Below are positions 33,931-41,220 of a stretch of 64,000 nt of DNA, one piece after another. How positions within the stretch are numbered: the stretch's first letter is position 1; each line of letters opens with the position of its first letter. The stretch is from Deltaproteobacteria bacterium. Its GTDB lineage: Bacteria; Bdellovibrionota_B; Oligoflexia; Oligoflexales; CAIYRB01. The notes beneath the pieces were generated by a model. It did not search any database, had not been told where the DNA came from, and saw nothing but the letters and a program-made list of their open reading frames with translations. The position numbers were made by a program, and so were the translations under genes. The DNA lies in contig VGTI01000001.1 of assembly GCA_016874735.1 (NCBI GenBank), positions 62,001 through 126,000 of the forward strand, written 5' to 3'.

Positions 33931-34818
33931 GTGGACGTCTTGGCTCATTATCATATGTTCGATTACAGGGCCCGTTGTGCAGTGGCTGTCACCACCGACA
34001 TCGTCCGTGAGCTGCAAAAGCGCCATCAGCTCGATCCCGTAACCACGATTGCCGTGGGGCGAGCAGTGAGTTGCGCGGCTCTTCTGGCCTCGGTGCTCAA
34101 GTCAGGGCAGGAATACGTACATACAATATTTGCCGGTGATGGTGGACTGCTGGCTAAAGTCATTGCTGAATGTAACGGCGACGGTCACTGCCGCGGTTAT
34201 GCCGTGCCACCGCGCCTCATCGAGGTCATGTCGGCCGGGGACGAGGCGCCATCCTCAGTTGGTGAGGCCCTTGGCGGTCGTGGTCTGCTCACTGTCACCC
34301 GAGGCCTTCCCGTTGAGCAGGGTGGGCCGTACAACGCTATTAGCGCCCTCGAAAACGGTGAAATAGCTGCCGACATTGCTAGGTACTTAACAGATTCCGA
34401 GCAAATTCCCTCGGCGGTTGGTGCTGGGGTGAAATTGGCATCCGACGGCAGCGTTTTGGCCGCTGGCGGGGTCCTTGTCCAAAGACTCGGTGGCGCTGTC
34501 CTCGATGAGGCCGAACTCACGGCCATCGAGGAGCGTATGCGTCAGCAGCTCTCGATTTCTGATCGGATAGCGGCAGGCCAGTCGAGCGATGAGATCGTCG
34601 CATTTCTTCAGGGCACAACTGGTCAGTTTGGCCTGCTGATGACGCGACCGCTGGTGTTCAAGTGTACATGTACGCATGACAAAATGATGCAGGCTCTGGC
34701 AGCATTAGGTGAGGATGAGCTTAAGAGCATCCTCAAAGAAACTGGGCGCTTAGCCGTGCGTTGCCAGTACTGTGCAGAAGAGCGTCAGTTCCGTCTCGCT
34801 GAGGTTATCAAGCACTAA
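33931..34818 (+). CDS. hslO: Redox-regulated chaperone Hsp33
   Basis: Cytosolic holdase activated by oxidation. The C-terminal zinc switch is intact: CTC (FKCTCTHDKM) and, 31 residues later, CQYC. The N-terminal domain shows the family pattern: RELQKRHQLDP, GRAVSCAALLASVLK, and the conserved YLTDSEQIPSAVGAGV. Several in-frame starts exist; the GTG giving VDVLAHYHMFDY is chosen because AGGAG lies 5 nt upstream, 36 nt after the alr stop. It is 295 aa, typical of the family. Its stop overlaps the VOC gene convergently by 4 nt. Confidence 0.93.
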   Translation: MDVLAHYHMFDYRARCAVAVTTDIVRELQKRHQLDPVTTIAVGRAVSCAALLASVLKSGQEYVHTIFAGDGGLLAKVIAECNGDGHCRGYAVPPRLIEVMSAGDEAPSSVGEALGGRGLLTVTRGLPVEQGGPYNAISALENGEIAADIARYLTDSEQIPSAVGAGVKLASDGSVLAAGGVLVQRLGGAVLDEAELTAIEERMRQQLSISDRIAAGQSSDEIVAFLQGTTGQFGLLMTRPLVFKCTCTHDKMMQALAALGEDELKSILKETGRLAVRCQYCAEERQFRLAEVIKH

Positions 34819-35207
34819 GCCGGTGGTGTCGCCTTTTCAAAGAGTCCAAAGCGCGTGCCATCAAGATCTTCACAAAGATGCACAACCCCATAGCCCGGAA
34901 GCTTGAGGGTTGTGGCAACCCTGCGACCACCAGATGCCACCACCCGCTCAAGAGTCCCTTGCGGGTCATCAACAGTGAAATACAAGGTCACTCGCTGTGA
35001 CCCTGCGTTCTCCCCTTTGTTCGCGGGGCGCAGACTGATGCCGAAAGGACAGTCGCGTGGCACTTCCATGAGTGCCATCTCGTGAAATTCTACCGGCACC
35101 GGACGCCACCCAAAAGCCTCATCGTAAAATTTAATCGATTTGGCTAGGTCGCTGACCAGAATTTCGATCTGGCATAAGCGAGTTGGGTCAACGCCGCAAC
35201 GACTCAT
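34815..35207 (-). CDS. VOC (glyoxalase/dioxygenase) superfamily protein
   Basis: A 130-aa protein with two beta-alpha-beta-beta-beta modules, typical of vicinal-oxygen-chelate proteins: IEILVSDLAKSIKFYDEAFGWRP in the first and VTLYFTVDDPQGTLERVVASG with HLCEDLDGTRFGLFE in the second. Likely metal ligands include the final Glu and a His, but the substrate is not evident. The ATG overlaps the stop of the HEAT-like gene as ATGA, so the two are probably cotranslated. Confidence 0.8.
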   Translation of the reverse strand: MSRCGVDPTRLCQIEILVSDLAKSIKFYDEAFGWRPVPVEFHEMALMEVPRDCPFGISLRPANKGENAGSQRVTLYFTVDDPQGTLERVVASGGRRVATTLKLPGYGVVHLCEDLDGTRFGLFEKATPPA

Positions 35208-35947
35208 GATCTCACTTCAAGACGGCCGTCCTTGCTGATGAAGAGCGGTCCGACGATATTACCGCTAGGGAAGCGCTCGGGCTCTTTCAGCTTCCAGCCG
35301 TGTTTAAGGAAGGCCTCGATCACCGAGCGACGAATCCTAGTATTGTCAGGGCTCTCGTCTCCGATGAAGCGCTCGATGGCTCCCGGGACCACTGGGTCAT
35401 CTTGTTCAATTAAGACTTCCGTCGCGGCAAAGCGCACTCTCTCGTCCGGATCGGCTATAAAGTGCAGCAGTTGCTCCGCGAACCCAGGCAGTTTGTAATC
35501 GATCATGTAACATAAGATGTCGTAATTCTTGTCGACTTTGGCCTGATCAAAGCGAACATCGGCAAAATCGAGAGCGCTCTTCAGAATTTCGATGACCTGG
35601 TCCTCTTTACCGAGGGCCTTCAATGTTTTAATCGGCCAGGCAATGCGATTAGTAGTCAGTAGGTGCTCGCGGACATGCGGTAGGGCAGTTTCACCGTAAG
35701 CGATGATACCGTCCATGCACGATTCCTTTTCCCTCGTATCATTGATCCCGTGCTCCAGACTGTACTCGAAGCGTTGCAGCAGGGCAGGCACCGCGACGTG
35801 TGGATCATCCAGGCCCTTGAAGTACTCTATGGCGGCCTGACGATCTTCCTTTATGGCTTTGGGATTTTTGATGACGGCCAATGACTTGCCAATCTTACGT
35901 TCGTCACGCTGTTTGCGGTAATCTTTGAATCGATCAAATAAGCCCAC
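35204..35947 (-). CDS. HEAT-repeat-like protein
   Basis: A predominantly helical protein of about 247 aa. Repeating helix pairs with DP...V..A patterns (GLDDPHVAVPALLQRF, IADPDERVRFAATEVLIEQ) indicate HEAT-like repeats over about residues 40-215, a protein-binding scaffold with no catalytic motif. The GTG giving VGLFDRFKDYRKQ is favoured because it begins at the conserved-looking amphipathic start and has AAGGGTGG upstream; a longer GTG start 36 nt upstream is possible. Coupled to the VOC gene by a 4-nt overlap. Function unknown. Confidence 0.7.
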   Translation of the reverse strand: MGLFDRFKDYRKQRDERKIGKSLAVIKNPKAIKEDRQAAIEYFKGLDDPHVAVPALLQRFEYSLEHGINDTREKESCMDGIIAYGETALPHVREHLLTTNRIAWPIKTLKALGKEDQVIEILKSALDFADVRFDQAKVDKNYDILCYMIDYKLPGFAEQLLHFIADPDERVRFAATEVLIEQDDPVVPGAIERFIGDESPDNTRIRRSVIEAFLKHGWKLKEPERFPSGNIVGPLFISKDGRLEVRS

Positions 35948-36166
35948 GGCAACCACCCTTTCCAGATGCAAGACCCCAATCACTCTAGTCTCATCTGGAC
36001 ACCATGCCTAGGTTTTTCTAGCTAGCGACATCGATGTCTGCCATTGCGCAATCACATGACGAGAATGGCTGAATTGTGTTATGGCTGAGGCTTGCAACTA
36101 GTGAGCTTAAGGGGCCCCGACCAGTTGGTACGGTCGAGCCGCTGTAGTCAGGAGCAATCGTTACCT

Positions 36167-37195
36167 ATGAGCCCAGATGAGATCAGTCGCGATGTAGCGG
36201 GTCTAGTTCTAGCTGCCGGAAAGGGCACTAGGATGAAGAGCGCTCTACCGAAGGTCCTACATCCCGTTTGCGGCCGCCCGATGATTGGTTGGACCCTTTC
36301 TACTTTGGCATCGATTGGTGTTCAGTCAGTTGTTACCGTTGTCAGTGAAGATCAACCGGAGCTGCTGCGTTATCTCCGCGACTACCCCGCCATACGGGTA
36401 GCAGCGCAGCGGAATCGTCAAGGCACAGGTGATGCCGTGGCCGCCGCCGCCGGACTTTTCGCCGGCGTCGAGCCACCGCCGTTTGCTGCGGGAAATATCC
36501 TGCAAGGGCAGCAGGTCAGTAACCCCATCGTGCTGATCTTGGCCGGTGATGTACCCGGTATACACCCCGACTCTCTGCGGCGTTTTCTGGCTTCGATGGA
36601 GGCCAACCATGCAGATCTAGCTGTGCTCGGGATGCGAGTGCCGCAGCCGCATGGCTACGGCCGTATGGTAACCAAAGATGCTGCGCTCTTTGCCATCGTC
36701 GAGGAGAAGGATGCCTCTCCCAGTGAGCGTGCTATCAATCTCTGCAATACCGGTATTATGGCAGCGCGCGTTGAGGTGCTTTTTGCCGCCTTAAAAATGC
36801 TCAAGCCAGATAATGCACAGCAGGAATATTATCTCACCGATTGTGTGAAGCATGCGCGATCGCTAGGTTATAAGGTGTGTGCGCACGAGACGGACCAGTG
36901 GCAGGAGTTTTCTGGTATAAACGATCGCGAGCAGCTAGCCTCCGTTGCGTCATGGCTGATGGCACGCAAGCGGCGGGACCTGATGCTGTCCGGAGTGACG
37001 ATCCAACAACCAGAGTCGGTCTATGTCGAGGATACCGTTGAGATCGGACCTGACACGGTCATTGAATCTGGATGCCACCTTGCTGGAGCGACGCGCATTG
37101 CCGCGGGCAGTGTCGTTGGCGCCGGATCGGTAATAAAGAACGTGACTGTTGCGACTGCGGCAGTGATTCCTCCAAATAGCGTCAAGATTAGCTAA
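36167..37195 (+). CDS. glmU: GlmU-type UDP-GlcNAc pyrophosphorylase lacking the acetyltransferase domain
   Basis: About 342 aa. The N-terminal uridylyltransferase domain is complete: LVLAAGKGTRMKSALPKVL, QGTGDAV, LAGDVP, GYGRMV, and the NxGIM region NLCNTGIMAA with YYLTDCV. A linker helix and only about three left-handed beta-helix coils follow (VEIGPDTVIESG, GSVVGAGSVIKN), then a stop. Ordinary GlmU is about 450 aa and carries GlcN-1-P acetyltransferase residues in the missing coils. The downstream glmS starts 15 nt later, so no frameshifted remainder exists. Start MSPDEISRD has AGGAG about 12 nt upstream. It may use GlcNAc-1-P made by another acetyltransferase. Confidence 0.88.
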   Translation: MSPDEISRDVAGLVLAAGKGTRMKSALPKVLHPVCGRPMIGWTLSTLASIGVQSVVTVVSEDQPELLRYLRDYPAIRVAAQRNRQGTGDAVAAAAGLFAGVEPPPFAAGNILQGQQVSNPIVLILAGDVPGIHPDSLRRFLASMEANHADLAVLGMRVPQPHGYGRMVTKDAALFAIVEEKDASPSERAINLCNTGIMAARVEVLFAALKMLKPDNAQQEYYLTDCVKHARSLGYKVCAHETDQWQEFSGINDREQLASVASWLMARKRRDLMLSGVTIQQPESVYVEDTVEIGPDTVIESGCHLAGATRIAAGSVVGAGSVIKNVTVATAAVIPPNSVKIS

Positions 37196-37210: not shown

Positions 37211-39043
37211 ATGTGCGGAATAGTTGGCTACATTGGAAAACAAAAGTGCGTCGACATTCTATTTGAGGGATTATCCCGGCTAGAGTATCGCGGCTATGAT
37301 TCGGCAGGTATCGCAGTCCTTGACGGTGGTGATATTGGCATCGTTAAGGCAGAGGGCAAGCTGAACCAACTGAAGCCCCGACTGGCAGAATTACCCGCCG
37401 GTGCCACCCGTGGCATAGGTCACACCAGGTGGGCAACCCACGGTATACCTAACACCACTAACGCGCATCCGCACGCTCACGGTGATGTGGCAATAGTTCA
37501 CAACGGTATTATCGAGAACTACCTTGAGCTAAAAAAGCAGCTAGAATCCGAAGGTGTGAAGTTTCAATCCGAAACGGACACTGAGGTGGCACTGCAAGTG
37601 TTCGTGAGAGAACTGGCGAGACACAAATCCCCGTTCAAGGCGATCATGGCAGTGATACCGCAATTACGCGGCGCCTTCTCACTCGGGATCTTGATCGGCA
37701 GCGAACCCGACGCCTTATATGTAGTTAAGCAAGGGTCTCCACTTGTTATCGGTGCCGGCCGCGGTGAGAACTTCTTCGCTAGTGATGCCATGGCCATCGT
37801 CAAGCATACGAGCCGCGCCCACTTTCTCAATGACGGCGAGATCGGGCGGATTACTGAAAACGGGGTCGAAATTTGGGACTTTGCCGGTAAGGTCGTGGCG
37901 CCCCATTTTGTCGAGCTTGATATTTCCAGTGCAAGCACGGAAAAACTCGGCTTCAAGCATTTCATGCTGAAGGAAATACACGAACAACCGCGCGTGTTGG
38001 CAGCCATGCTGCAGCGTCTGATCAATCTCGACACCGGGATGCTAAATGCGACCGAGCTGGGGCTCGACCGTTTAGATCTCAAAAGAGTCGATAATATCTG
38101 TATGGTTGCGTGCGGTACGGCGTATTATTCGGCCCTGCTCGGCAAGTATTATCTCGAACCTGCGACCCAACTTCCTGTCAATGTGGAACTGGCAAGTGAG
38201 TTTCGTTACCGCAAGCCTTGGCTTAGCAAGAACACGCTGTTCATCGCCGTCTCGCAGTCTGGTGAGACGGCCGATACCCTAGCAACTGTTAAACAGGCCA
38301 AGGAGCATGGGTGCCAAGTTCTTGCTGTATGCAATGTGAAGATGTCATCGATCGCGCGTGAATCGCATGTGACCTTGCATATGGACGCTGGGCCTGAGAT
38401 TGGCGTCGCTTCGACTAAGGCCTTTACGTCGATGCTTTTAGCCCACTACTTATTGGCTCTGGGGCTTGGCTATCAGCGCAAAACTCTCACTGCGCATGAC
38501 TTGCAAGCCGCCGCCGCGCATCTGAAGACGCTGCCGGCCCGCATGGATCAGGCTATTGACGGCAAGGTTGCTATAGAACAGCTAGCCTCTAAGTACGACG
38601 AAGCATCGAATTTTATCTTCATCGGCCGTGGGAGTAGTTATCCCATAGCGCTAGAGGGTGCACTTAAACTTAAAGAGATTTCCTACATTCATGCGGAAGG
38701 CTACGCCGGTGGTGAGCTCAAGCATGGGCCGATCGCGCTGATCGATAGGCATATGCCCGTGGTCGCGATTGCGCCTAACGACACCTACCGCGAGAAGATG
38801 ATCTCCAACATTGAAGAGGTGAAGGCGCGGCAGGGACGCATCATTGCGGTAGGGGATCTTCACGATCAGCATTTACGGCGGCTGGCAGATGATTATATCG
38901 CTTGCCCGCATATCGATGACTCAGGATTGCAGGCGATTCTGTCGGTTGTCTGTTTGCAGTTACTCTCTTATTACGTGGCCGTAAAACGTGGTACCGATGT
39001 CGATCAGCCACGAAACCTGGCCAAATCAGTTACCGTTGAATGA
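37211..39043 (+). CDS. glmS: Glutamine-fructose-6-phosphate aminotransferase
   Basis: Makes glucosamine-6-phosphate, the first amino-sugar precursor of peptidoglycan and LPS. It starts MCGIVGYIG with the N-terminal nucleophile Cys after Met removal, then RLEYRGYDSAGIA, GHTRWATHG and HNGIIENY in the glutaminase domain (1 to about 240). Two SIS domains follow (SQSGETADT; YAGGELKHGPIAL). It ends LAKSVTVE, the canonical tail. GAGGG precedes the ATG. The cluster with glmU is functional; its stop overlaps the pcrA start as ATGA. No glmS ribozyme is visible upstream. Confidence 0.97.
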   Translation: MCGIVGYIGKQKCVDILFEGLSRLEYRGYDSAGIAVLDGGDIGIVKAEGKLNQLKPRLAELPAGATRGIGHTRWATHGIPNTTNAHPHAHGDVAIVHNGIIENYLELKKQLESEGVKFQSETDTEVALQVFVRELARHKSPFKAIMAVIPQLRGAFSLGILIGSEPDALYVVKQGSPLVIGAGRGENFFASDAMAIVKHTSRAHFLNDGEIGRITENGVEIWDFAGKVVAPHFVELDISSASTEKLGFKHFMLKEIHEQPRVLAAMLQRLINLDTGMLNATELGLDRLDLKRVDNICMVACGTAYYSALLGKYYLEPATQLPVNVELASEFRYRKPWLSKNTLFIAVSQSGETADTLATVKQAKEHGCQVLAVCNVKMSSIARESHVTLHMDAGPEIGVASTKAFTSMLLAHYLLALGLGYQRKTLTAHDLQAAAAHLKTLPARMDQAIDGKVAIEQLASKYDEASNFIFIGRGSSYPIALEGALKLKEISYIHAEGYAGGELKHGPIALIDRHMPVVAIAPNDTYREKMISNIEEVKARQGRIIAVGDLHDQHLRRLADDYIACPHIDDSGLQAILSVVCLQLLSYYVAVKRGTDVDQPRNLAKSVTVE

Positions 39044-41220
39044 GGCCAATTTTGGAAACGGAAAGTCGCGGTGCTAAGCTACTGGCGGGACTCAACGATG
39101 TACAGCGCCAGGCCGCGATGCATAAGGATGGCCCCCTGGTTGTCTTTGCTGGTGCAGGTAGCGGAAAGACCCGTATCATTACGCACCGCATTGCCTGGTT
39201 GATTGAACAAGGTGTGAGACCTTGGGAGATCCTTGCAGTTACCTTCACCAACAAGGCCGCGCTCGAAATGCGCACGCGGCTCCAGTCGTTAACACCTCAG
39301 GGCAACCGCTGCTTGATCGCGACCTTTCACTCAGCTTGTGCGCGTTGGTTGCGCGAGTTTGCACCCGAGTTGGGATTCACCTCGGACTTTACGATTTACG
39401 ACGATGCTGATCAGCTCACGGCTCTAAAGACGGTTCTTGCTGAGTTAAACGTCAAACTCGATGAAGAGAACACGGCGCAGGAGTATAAGGCTGCAATCAA
39501 TCGCGCCAAGACTATGGCCATGTTACCCAGTGATGAGCGGTTGGCCCGAGAATACGGCGATCAGATGCCACCAGTCGGCATGCAGGTTTACAAGCGTTAT
39601 CAAGAGTATCTAGCAAGCTGCAATGCGATGGATTTCGGCGACCTTATCATGAACATGCTGTTGCTACTCAGACGCAACACTATGGTGCGCGATGTACTAC
39701 AGAGTCGCTATCGCTACATTTTGGTGGATGAGTACCAAGACACTAATAGAACTCAATTTGAGCTCATTGCTAGACTAGCGGAGAAATTCCGCAACCTCTT
39801 CGTTGTCGGTGACGACGATCAATCCATATATAGTTGGCGCGGTGCCGTGCCGTCAAACATCATCGATTTTGACAAAGTCTATCCCGACGCCATACGGGTG
39901 ACTATGGAGCAGAATTACCGCTGTAGTAGCAACATTGTCGATGCTGCAAGTGCGATGATTCAGAACAATAAAAGGCGAGTGCCTAAACGTCTTTTCACCC
40001 AAAATGCTGCTGGTGAATTGATCAACTATAGGCTGGAAACGGACAACGAGATCGAAGCCTGGTGGGTGATTGGGTCGATCAAGGATGAGCTTGACCAGTA
40101 TCCTTTGTCAGACATTGCGATCTTCTACCGAACGAACAGCCAGTCAAGGATGCTCGAGGATGCGCTACGGCGCGAGAATTTGCCCTACCAGATTTACGGG
40201 ACCGTGCGATTTTATGATCGAGTCGAAATCAAGGATCTTTTGGCCTACGTCAGGATTGTTATCAATCCCAATGATGACGTTAGCGTCAAGCGTGTTATCA
40301 ATGTTCCAACGCGTGGTATAGGCAAGAAAGCTGAGGCCACTCTCGAGGCTGAGGCAGCAAGACGCGGTCTTGCCTTGCTGCCCACCATTGATGCCTTGAT
40401 CGCCGAGGGTCATAAACTTGCTGCAAAGTTTTCGGCCTTTGCTTCCCTGGTCGCATCCATTCGCCGTGATGTGCTGAGCGCACCCTTGGATGAGGTCATG
40501 GAGAAATTGCTCGCAGCCACCAAATACCTCAGTCACGTAGAGAAAAAGTACCCTGACCAAGCGATGGATAAGATCGAAAATATCCAGGAGTTGGGTGCAG
40601 CTGTCGCGGATTTTGCAGCAGCTTACCCAGATGCAAATATGGCTGAGTGGTTGCAGACAATTACATTGGTGAGCTCCGAGTCTGAAAATAAAGGCGGTGT
40701 CTCGCTTATGACGCTGCACATGGCAAAGGGCCTCGAGTTTCCGCGCGTTTACATCGTAGGGCTAGAGGAAGGCCTCCTCCCGCACCGCAGTAGTATTGAT
40801 GACGAGGATAATGTCGAGGAGGAGCGTCGCCTATTTTACGTGGGCATGACTAGGGCTAAACAGAAGTTGTCACTATGCGGAGCCTATAGGCGACGGACCT
40901 ACAATCAGTGGACAGCTAATCGTCCCTCGCGCTTTCTCAGCGAAATCCCGCGGGAATTTTTCGCTGCGATGAAAGATGTCGAAGCCGGTGCAGTGGCTCA
41001 AGATGTCGGATCTATCGGTTATGCTGACGGCCCGCGCTACGATTATGACGATGTTGGGGCTCCCGCCGTCATGCAAGTCAGTGTCGGACAGGTTGTCCGA
41101 CACCCGACCTACGGCCGTGGTACAGTGGAGCAAATGAGCGATGAATTCGGCGTTTTAAAAGCCGTGGTTCGCTTTGATGAATTCGGCTTAAGGAAAGTGG
41201 TGCTCAAACACCTTCATTAG
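39040..41220 (+). CDS. pcrA: UvrD/PcrA/Rep-family DNA helicase
   Basis: SF1A 3'-5' helicase of 726 aa, involved in repair and replication-transcription conflict. Motifs: Q-motif LNDVQRQAA, Walker A AGAGSGKTRIITHR, Ia VTFTNKAALEMR, II YILVDEYQDTN, III DDDQSIYSWRGA, IV YRTNSQSR, V TLHMAKGLEFP and VI RRLFYVGMTRA. The C-terminal tail GQVVRHPTYGRGTVEQM resembles the Tudor-like domain of PcrA, which contacts RNA polymerase. Coupled to glmS by ATGA, an unusual pairing with no evident shared pathway. Confidence 0.94.
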   Translation: MRPILETESRGAKLLAGLNDVQRQAAMHKDGPLVVFAGAGSGKTRIITHRIAWLIEQGVRPWEILAVTFTNKAALEMRTRLQSLTPQGNRCLIATFHSACARWLREFAPELGFTSDFTIYDDADQLTALKTVLAELNVKLDEENTAQEYKAAINRAKTMAMLPSDERLAREYGDQMPPVGMQVYKRYQEYLASCNAMDFGDLIMNMLLLLRRNTMVRDVLQSRYRYILVDEYQDTNRTQFELIARLAEKFRNLFVVGDDDQSIYSWRGAVPSNIIDFDKVYPDAIRVTMEQNYRCSSNIVDAASAMIQNNKRRVPKRLFTQNAAGELINYRLETDNEIEAWWVIGSIKDELDQYPLSDIAIFYRTNSQSRMLEDALRRENLPYQIYGTVRFYDRVEIKDLLAYVRIVINPNDDVSVKRVINVPTRGIGKKAEATLEAEAARRGLALLPTIDALIAEGHKLAAKFSAFASLVASIRRDVLSAPLDEVMEKLLAATKYLSHVEKKYPDQAMDKIENIQELGAAVADFAAAYPDANMAEWLQTITLVSSESENKGGVSLMTLHMAKGLEFPRVYIVGLEEGLLPHRSSIDDEDNVEEERRLFYVGMTRAKQKLSLCGAYRRRTYNQWTANRPSRFLSEIPREFFAAMKDVEAGAVAQDVGSIGYADGPRYDYDDVGAPAVMQVSVGQVVRHPTYGRGTVEQMSDEFGVLKAVVRFDEFGLRKVVLKHLH

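Follow-up and report, generated by a model that had tools for sequence, protein, structure and literature searches.

We propose that the bacterium studied here very probably makes UDP-GlcNAc with a naturally split GlmU, in which GlmS, GlmM, a detached acetyltransferase and a monofunctional uridylyltransferase would act together; we infer the activities of the last two proteins from their conserved residues, folds and distribution. Bacteria are generally taken to reach UDP-GlcNAc through bifunctional GlmU, which is also regarded as a drug target. The order of reactions that we suggest follows from the known GlmS-GlmM-GlmU pathway: GlmS would provide glucosamine-6-P, GlmM would convert it to glucosamine-1-P, a stand-alone beta-helix acetyltransferase encoded on contig C21 would acetylate this to GlcNAc-1-P, and the truncated GlmU of the window (the whole stretch of 64,000 nucleotides that was analysed) would add UMP to give UDP-GlcNAc. 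When E. coli GlmU was dissected in the laboratory, its halves could reportedly function apart from each other, so that a natural split would be no great surprise. The two-gene arrangement is common to the whole phylum and is seen in several others. The initial annotation had spoken of a rewired pathway, which is slightly strong: the chemistry is probably unchanged, with one step apparently carried by a detached, non-orthologous acetyltransferase.

Table 1. Features of the proposed split GlmU system (window positions unless a contig or locus is named)
Feature	Position	Strand	Basis or remark
AGGAG, ribosome-binding-like sequence	36150-36154		before the glmU ATG
Putatively monofunctional (truncated) GlmU, 342 aa	36167..37195	+	ORF and sequence, family matches, no second copy
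Uridylyltransferase (nucleotidyltransferase) domain, about residues 9-250	36191..36916	+	PF12804/PF00483; active-site residues invariant in relatives
Linker helix, residues 254-274	36926..36988	+	secondary structure of the model
Beta-helix stub, residues 276-342, without acetyltransferase residues	36992..37192	+	one PF00132 match; model; end of TIGR01173 alignment
glmS, 610 aa, glutamine--fructose-6-phosphate transaminase	37211..39043	+	TIGR01135, 790.5 bits against a cut-off of 418
Stand-alone left-handed beta-helix protein, 225 aa	contig C21:13743-14420	+	outside the window; hexapeptide search of the whole genome
Stand-alone GlmU acetyltransferase half, genome G101	L279 3371-4156	+	
Stand-alone GlmU acetyltransferase half, genome G138	L280 3696-4412	-	

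The short GlmU and its locus

The glmU reading frame runs from an ATG at 36167 to a TAA at 37193-37195, and 15 nt separate this stop from the glmS ATG (37211). An intact uridylyltransferase half, a helix of about three coils and the absence of a frameshift had been claimed from the sequence, and all three descriptions hold: the 342-aa protein ends in a stub of about 11 hexapeptides, or 3-4 coils by a hand count on the sequence, its alignment to the bifunctional family TIGR01173 covers positions 4-311 of 452 only, and the short form recurs in the genus and throughout the phylum. The TIGR01173 score (280.6 bits) lies below the curated cut-off of 366.85, the best profile is NF010935 (positions 3-317 of 459), and Pfam finds a single hexapeptide stretch (residues 291-325) C-terminal of the nucleotidyltransferase domain. 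The AlphaFold2 model (mean pLDDT 95.8) closes with a short beta-helix stub, fits bifunctional GlmU structures across the shared part and superposes over nearly its full length on the 331-aa chain of E. coli 1FWY (TM 0.86 for the query, 0.90 for the target). The latter, which we take to be a laboratory construct of E. coli GlmU, is of similar extent, with a uridylyltransferase domain and a short beta-helix stub, whereas the truncation of the window protein is natural and phylum-wide.

Every conserved residue of the uridylyltransferase that was compared is present, and LAAG.G.RM, K29, Q81, G86-T87, D128, G165-R166, E179, N216 and N252 are invariant in the relatives and common to active GlmU. Residues and fold fit a monofunctional GlcNAc-1-P uridylyltransferase, the activity that we would assign to this protein from sequence and model. 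With the bifunctional bacterial GlmU of the E. coli type (TIGR01173) it shares an orthologous uridylyltransferase domain, the active-site residues, the fold and the glmS neighbour; it differs in scoring below the family cut-off and in lacking, on the same chain, the acetyltransferase region of the beta helix, and the detached acetyltransferase is a relative of the archaeal type and not a GlmU C-terminal half.

Downstream of glmS, and overlapping its end by 4 nt, lies a UvrD/PcrA-type helicase gene (39040-41220, + strand); the overlap suggests that glmU, glmS and the helicase gene form one transcript. A scan for promoters and terminators around the glmU start found nothing. Upstream and divergent is a gene for a HEAT-repeat-like protein (GLFDRFKDYRKQRDERKI...; 35204-35983, - strand), which adjoins glmU in many Oligoflexales loci (relatives L004, L006, L009, L014, L020 and L028) and is often accompanied near glmU by a glyoxalase-like gene (34815-35207 in the window).

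The stand-alone beta-helix protein

The genome, a 4.65-Mb draft in 166 contigs that is 96.8% complete, encodes both GlmS and GlmM. A missing or broken glmM was ruled out, the gene being merely cut by a contig end: the ends of contigs C3 and C45, between which it is split, share a 155-nt overlap with one mismatch, and once they are joined GlmM reads through as 456 aa, which answers the call in the initial annotation for a search for this gene. A per-contig gene table would list two glmM fragments, one at each of these ends. The same annotation had offered three ways out, a second, full-length GlmU, which would make the window gene a paralogue, a separate acetyltransferase, or a different route to GlcNAc-1-P. 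No GlmU besides the window gene was found in the draft genome; apart from it, two weak matches were obtained, on C128 with an RmlA-like nucleotidyltransferase and on C3 with a sugar nucleotidyltransferase whose beta helix is short, neither of which is a GlmU.

The separate acetyltransferase gained support from the protein encoded on C21, whose gene adjoins neither glmU nor glmS. Its sequence, which contains GHTTEVKGS...AKAGHFAYVGDS...NLGAGTKLAN, matches residues 180-377 of ST0452, the acetyltransferase half of an archaeal GlmU (E 2.6e-28), and positions 231-389 of 393 of TIGR03992 (E 1e-46), a family matched by all 24 aligned members of the detached family; the C21 protein does not carry the fused N-terminal nucleotidylyltransferase, and its score of 159.6 bits is below the TIGR03992 cut-off of 292.1. 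In the monomeric AlphaFold2 model (pLDDT 95.4), too, ST0452 is the first PDB match (TM 0.78). An alignment of 24 Oligoflexales sequences shows no variation in the GAGT loop or in K129, H132, Y135 and N155, which correspond to ST0452 K305, H308, Y311 and N331. Among the residues of ST0452 that we take to be important (H308, Y311, N331, K337 and K340), K337 is replaced by S161, and K340 corresponds to K164, which is variable among the relatives. The C21 protein is most likely a glucosamine-1-P N-acetyltransferase, and probably a trimer, judging from these similarities.

The acetyltransferase half of ST0452 is thus the best match of the detached protein in both sequence and structure, and the two share the H, Y and N residues, but in the archaeal enzyme the nucleotidylyltransferase is fused, whereas the C21 protein stands alone, would have a GlmU-type partner and, unlike ST0452, begins with a short helical segment that looks unrelated. 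The alternative bacterial GlmU TIGR03991, which also matches (E 3e-29), is likewise a fused bifunctional protein, in contrast to the stand-alone acetyltransferase here. Neither TIGR03991 nor KEGG K11528, presumably a monofunctional pyrophosphorylase, names the detached acetyltransferase. K11528 is a second GlmU entry, merged with K04042 in PMC5814848. The other beta-helix proteins of the genome were set aside as resembling LpxD, LpxA, a serine-acetyltransferase-like, two gamma-carbonic-anhydrase-like and a DapD-like protein, labels given by sequence inspection.

Distribution within and beyond the phylum

The comparison of GlmU lengths proposed at the outset returned the short form throughout the phylum. 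Each of the five other genomes of the genus has a short glmU (one cut by a contig end), and glmS follows directly in all four that are readable past the gene. GlmU was matched in 38 of 43 genomes of the order Oligoflexales; those readable whole are all short (about 260-380 aa), with a stub in some and none in others (families f3, f4 and f5 have no stub at all), and most have glmS closely downstream. When 58 phylum genomes, from Oligoflexales and relatives, were searched with TIGR01173, no full-length GlmU was found and no match extended beyond position 337 or reached the cut-off; the relatives include Oligoflexales, Oligoflexaceae and Pseudobacteriovorax, with Silvanigrellales in the same class. 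The detached protein is present in 40 of the 43 order genomes and in 54 of the 58 phylum genomes, the four without it being drafts that are 72-90% complete. A tree built from the uridylyltransferase domain unites the Oligoflexia sequences in one group (SH-aLRT 99), whose neighbours are short Cloacimonadota GlmUs (92); within the Oligoflexia the stub state changes at least three times, which fits repeated erosion. The stub is most simply read as a remnant of a bifunctional ancestor, a direction of evolution that we infer.

Stand-alone relatives occur, at one genome per species, in Thermodesulfobacteria, other Desulfobacterota-like groups, Chloroflexi, Chlamydiae, Cloacimonadota, Gemmatimonadota and others, and 78 of 79 Chlamydiota genomes have the detached protein. 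Thirty-four carriers were examined, 6 from the phylum of the bacterium studied here and 28 from outside it; among the latter, which were chosen for carrying the detached protein, GlmU was matched in 18 and undetectable in 10, and none had a full-length GlmU. TIGR01173 had no match in the four Chlamydiae examined. Co-occurrence was tested in the phylum of one outside carrier, from which 148 genomes were sampled evenly. The detached protein was found in none of 74 genomes with a full-length GlmU, in 42 of 70 with a short or undetected one (Fisher p 7e-18, a value inflated by shared ancestry since genomes are counted one by one) and in none of the four with only a C-terminal piece of GlmU. The tree offers only five well-supported independent contrasts, of which one or two are informative in that they differ in the detached protein; these always point in the expected direction and are too few to decide.

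In 24 of these 148 genomes (G095, G112, G118, G120, G149, G154-G156, G158, G167, G172, G176, G183, G184, G199, G204, G205, G207, G208 and G227-G231) a short GlmU occurs without the detached protein, and loss of the acetyltransferase half is therefore not always paired with this replacement. An archaeal GlmU profile run against 23 of them detected no acetyltransferase half except a 155-aa fragment in G204, and no acetyltransferase gene stood out when 18 of their glmU neighbourhoods were read by eye as open frames; these genomes may use a third acetyltransferase. The mirror case was seen in G101 and G138, where a GlmU acetyltransferase half without a uridylyltransferase domain of its own lies directly beside glmS. 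Taken more broadly, we consider it somewhat probable that the two-gene route is standard in several phyla, that the detached enzyme supplies the acetylation step in Chlamydiota and that this enzyme has replaced the acetyltransferase domain of GlmU more than once.

Competing readings and meaning for UDP-GlcNAc synthesis

The least improbable alternative, unlikely as we hold it to be, is that the substrate of the C21 protein is some other amino sugar and that GlcNAc-1-P arises by another route, either a GNAT acting on glucosamine-6-P followed by a mutase, which is the eukaryotic order, or salvage of GlcNAc. Homology leaves the substrate unfixed, ST0452 itself accepts both galactosamine-1-P and glucosamine-1-P, and the detached protein is dispensed with in some genomes whose GlmU is short; against this, the near-universal presence of the protein in the phylum fits a core step, it never co-occurs with a full-length GlmU among the 148 genomes, and the genome encodes a glucosamine-phosphate type of GlmM.

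The remaining alternatives concern the window gene. That the stub of the truncated GlmU retains acetyltransferase activity is very improbable: nothing was found in its favour, the alignment stops near profile position 312, before the K..H..Y region of the detached protein and of bifunctional GlmU, and families f3, f4 and f5 lack a stub altogether. Still more remote, to a degree that makes them nearly negligible, are a bifunctional GlmU recently truncated or broken by a sequencing frameshift, a reading that nothing was found to favour and that conflicts with the spacing to glmS, which leaves no room for the remainder, and with the equal length in related species, and a paralogue whose full-length counterpart lies in an unassembled part of the genome; the fragmented and incomplete draft would allow the latter, but the full-length form is missing from every one of the 58 phylum genomes, several of them with a completeness above 95% and some assembled as a single contig. 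A naturally split GlmU is the reading that we prefer, with S161 in place of K337, the location of the C21 gene away from glmU and glmS, and the 24 genomes with a short GlmU but no detached protein as the points that speak against it.

In a literature search that took in few subscription papers, most subscription journals being outside its scope, nothing was found on a split GlmU or on GlmU of the Oligoflexia, and the detached protein was nowhere named as the missing acetyltransferase; prior knowledge is possible. A survey covering 12,939 genomes reported that, endosymbionts aside, about 10% lack the pathway, with GlmU absent in Chlamydia and its C-terminus missing in one Chlorobaculum, and ascribed these gaps to loss of the pathway or to uptake (PMC7725333). 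The detached family, given its frequency in the Chlamydiota and in a phylum without full-length GlmU, offers a simple and testable way of filling part of this gap. In Planctopirus, GlmU is essential only in its nucleotidyltransferase domain (PMC10632474), which a detached acetyltransferase, if present there, would explain. If the proposal is true, inhibitors directed at the acetyltransferase site of GlmU would face a different enzyme in these bacteria.
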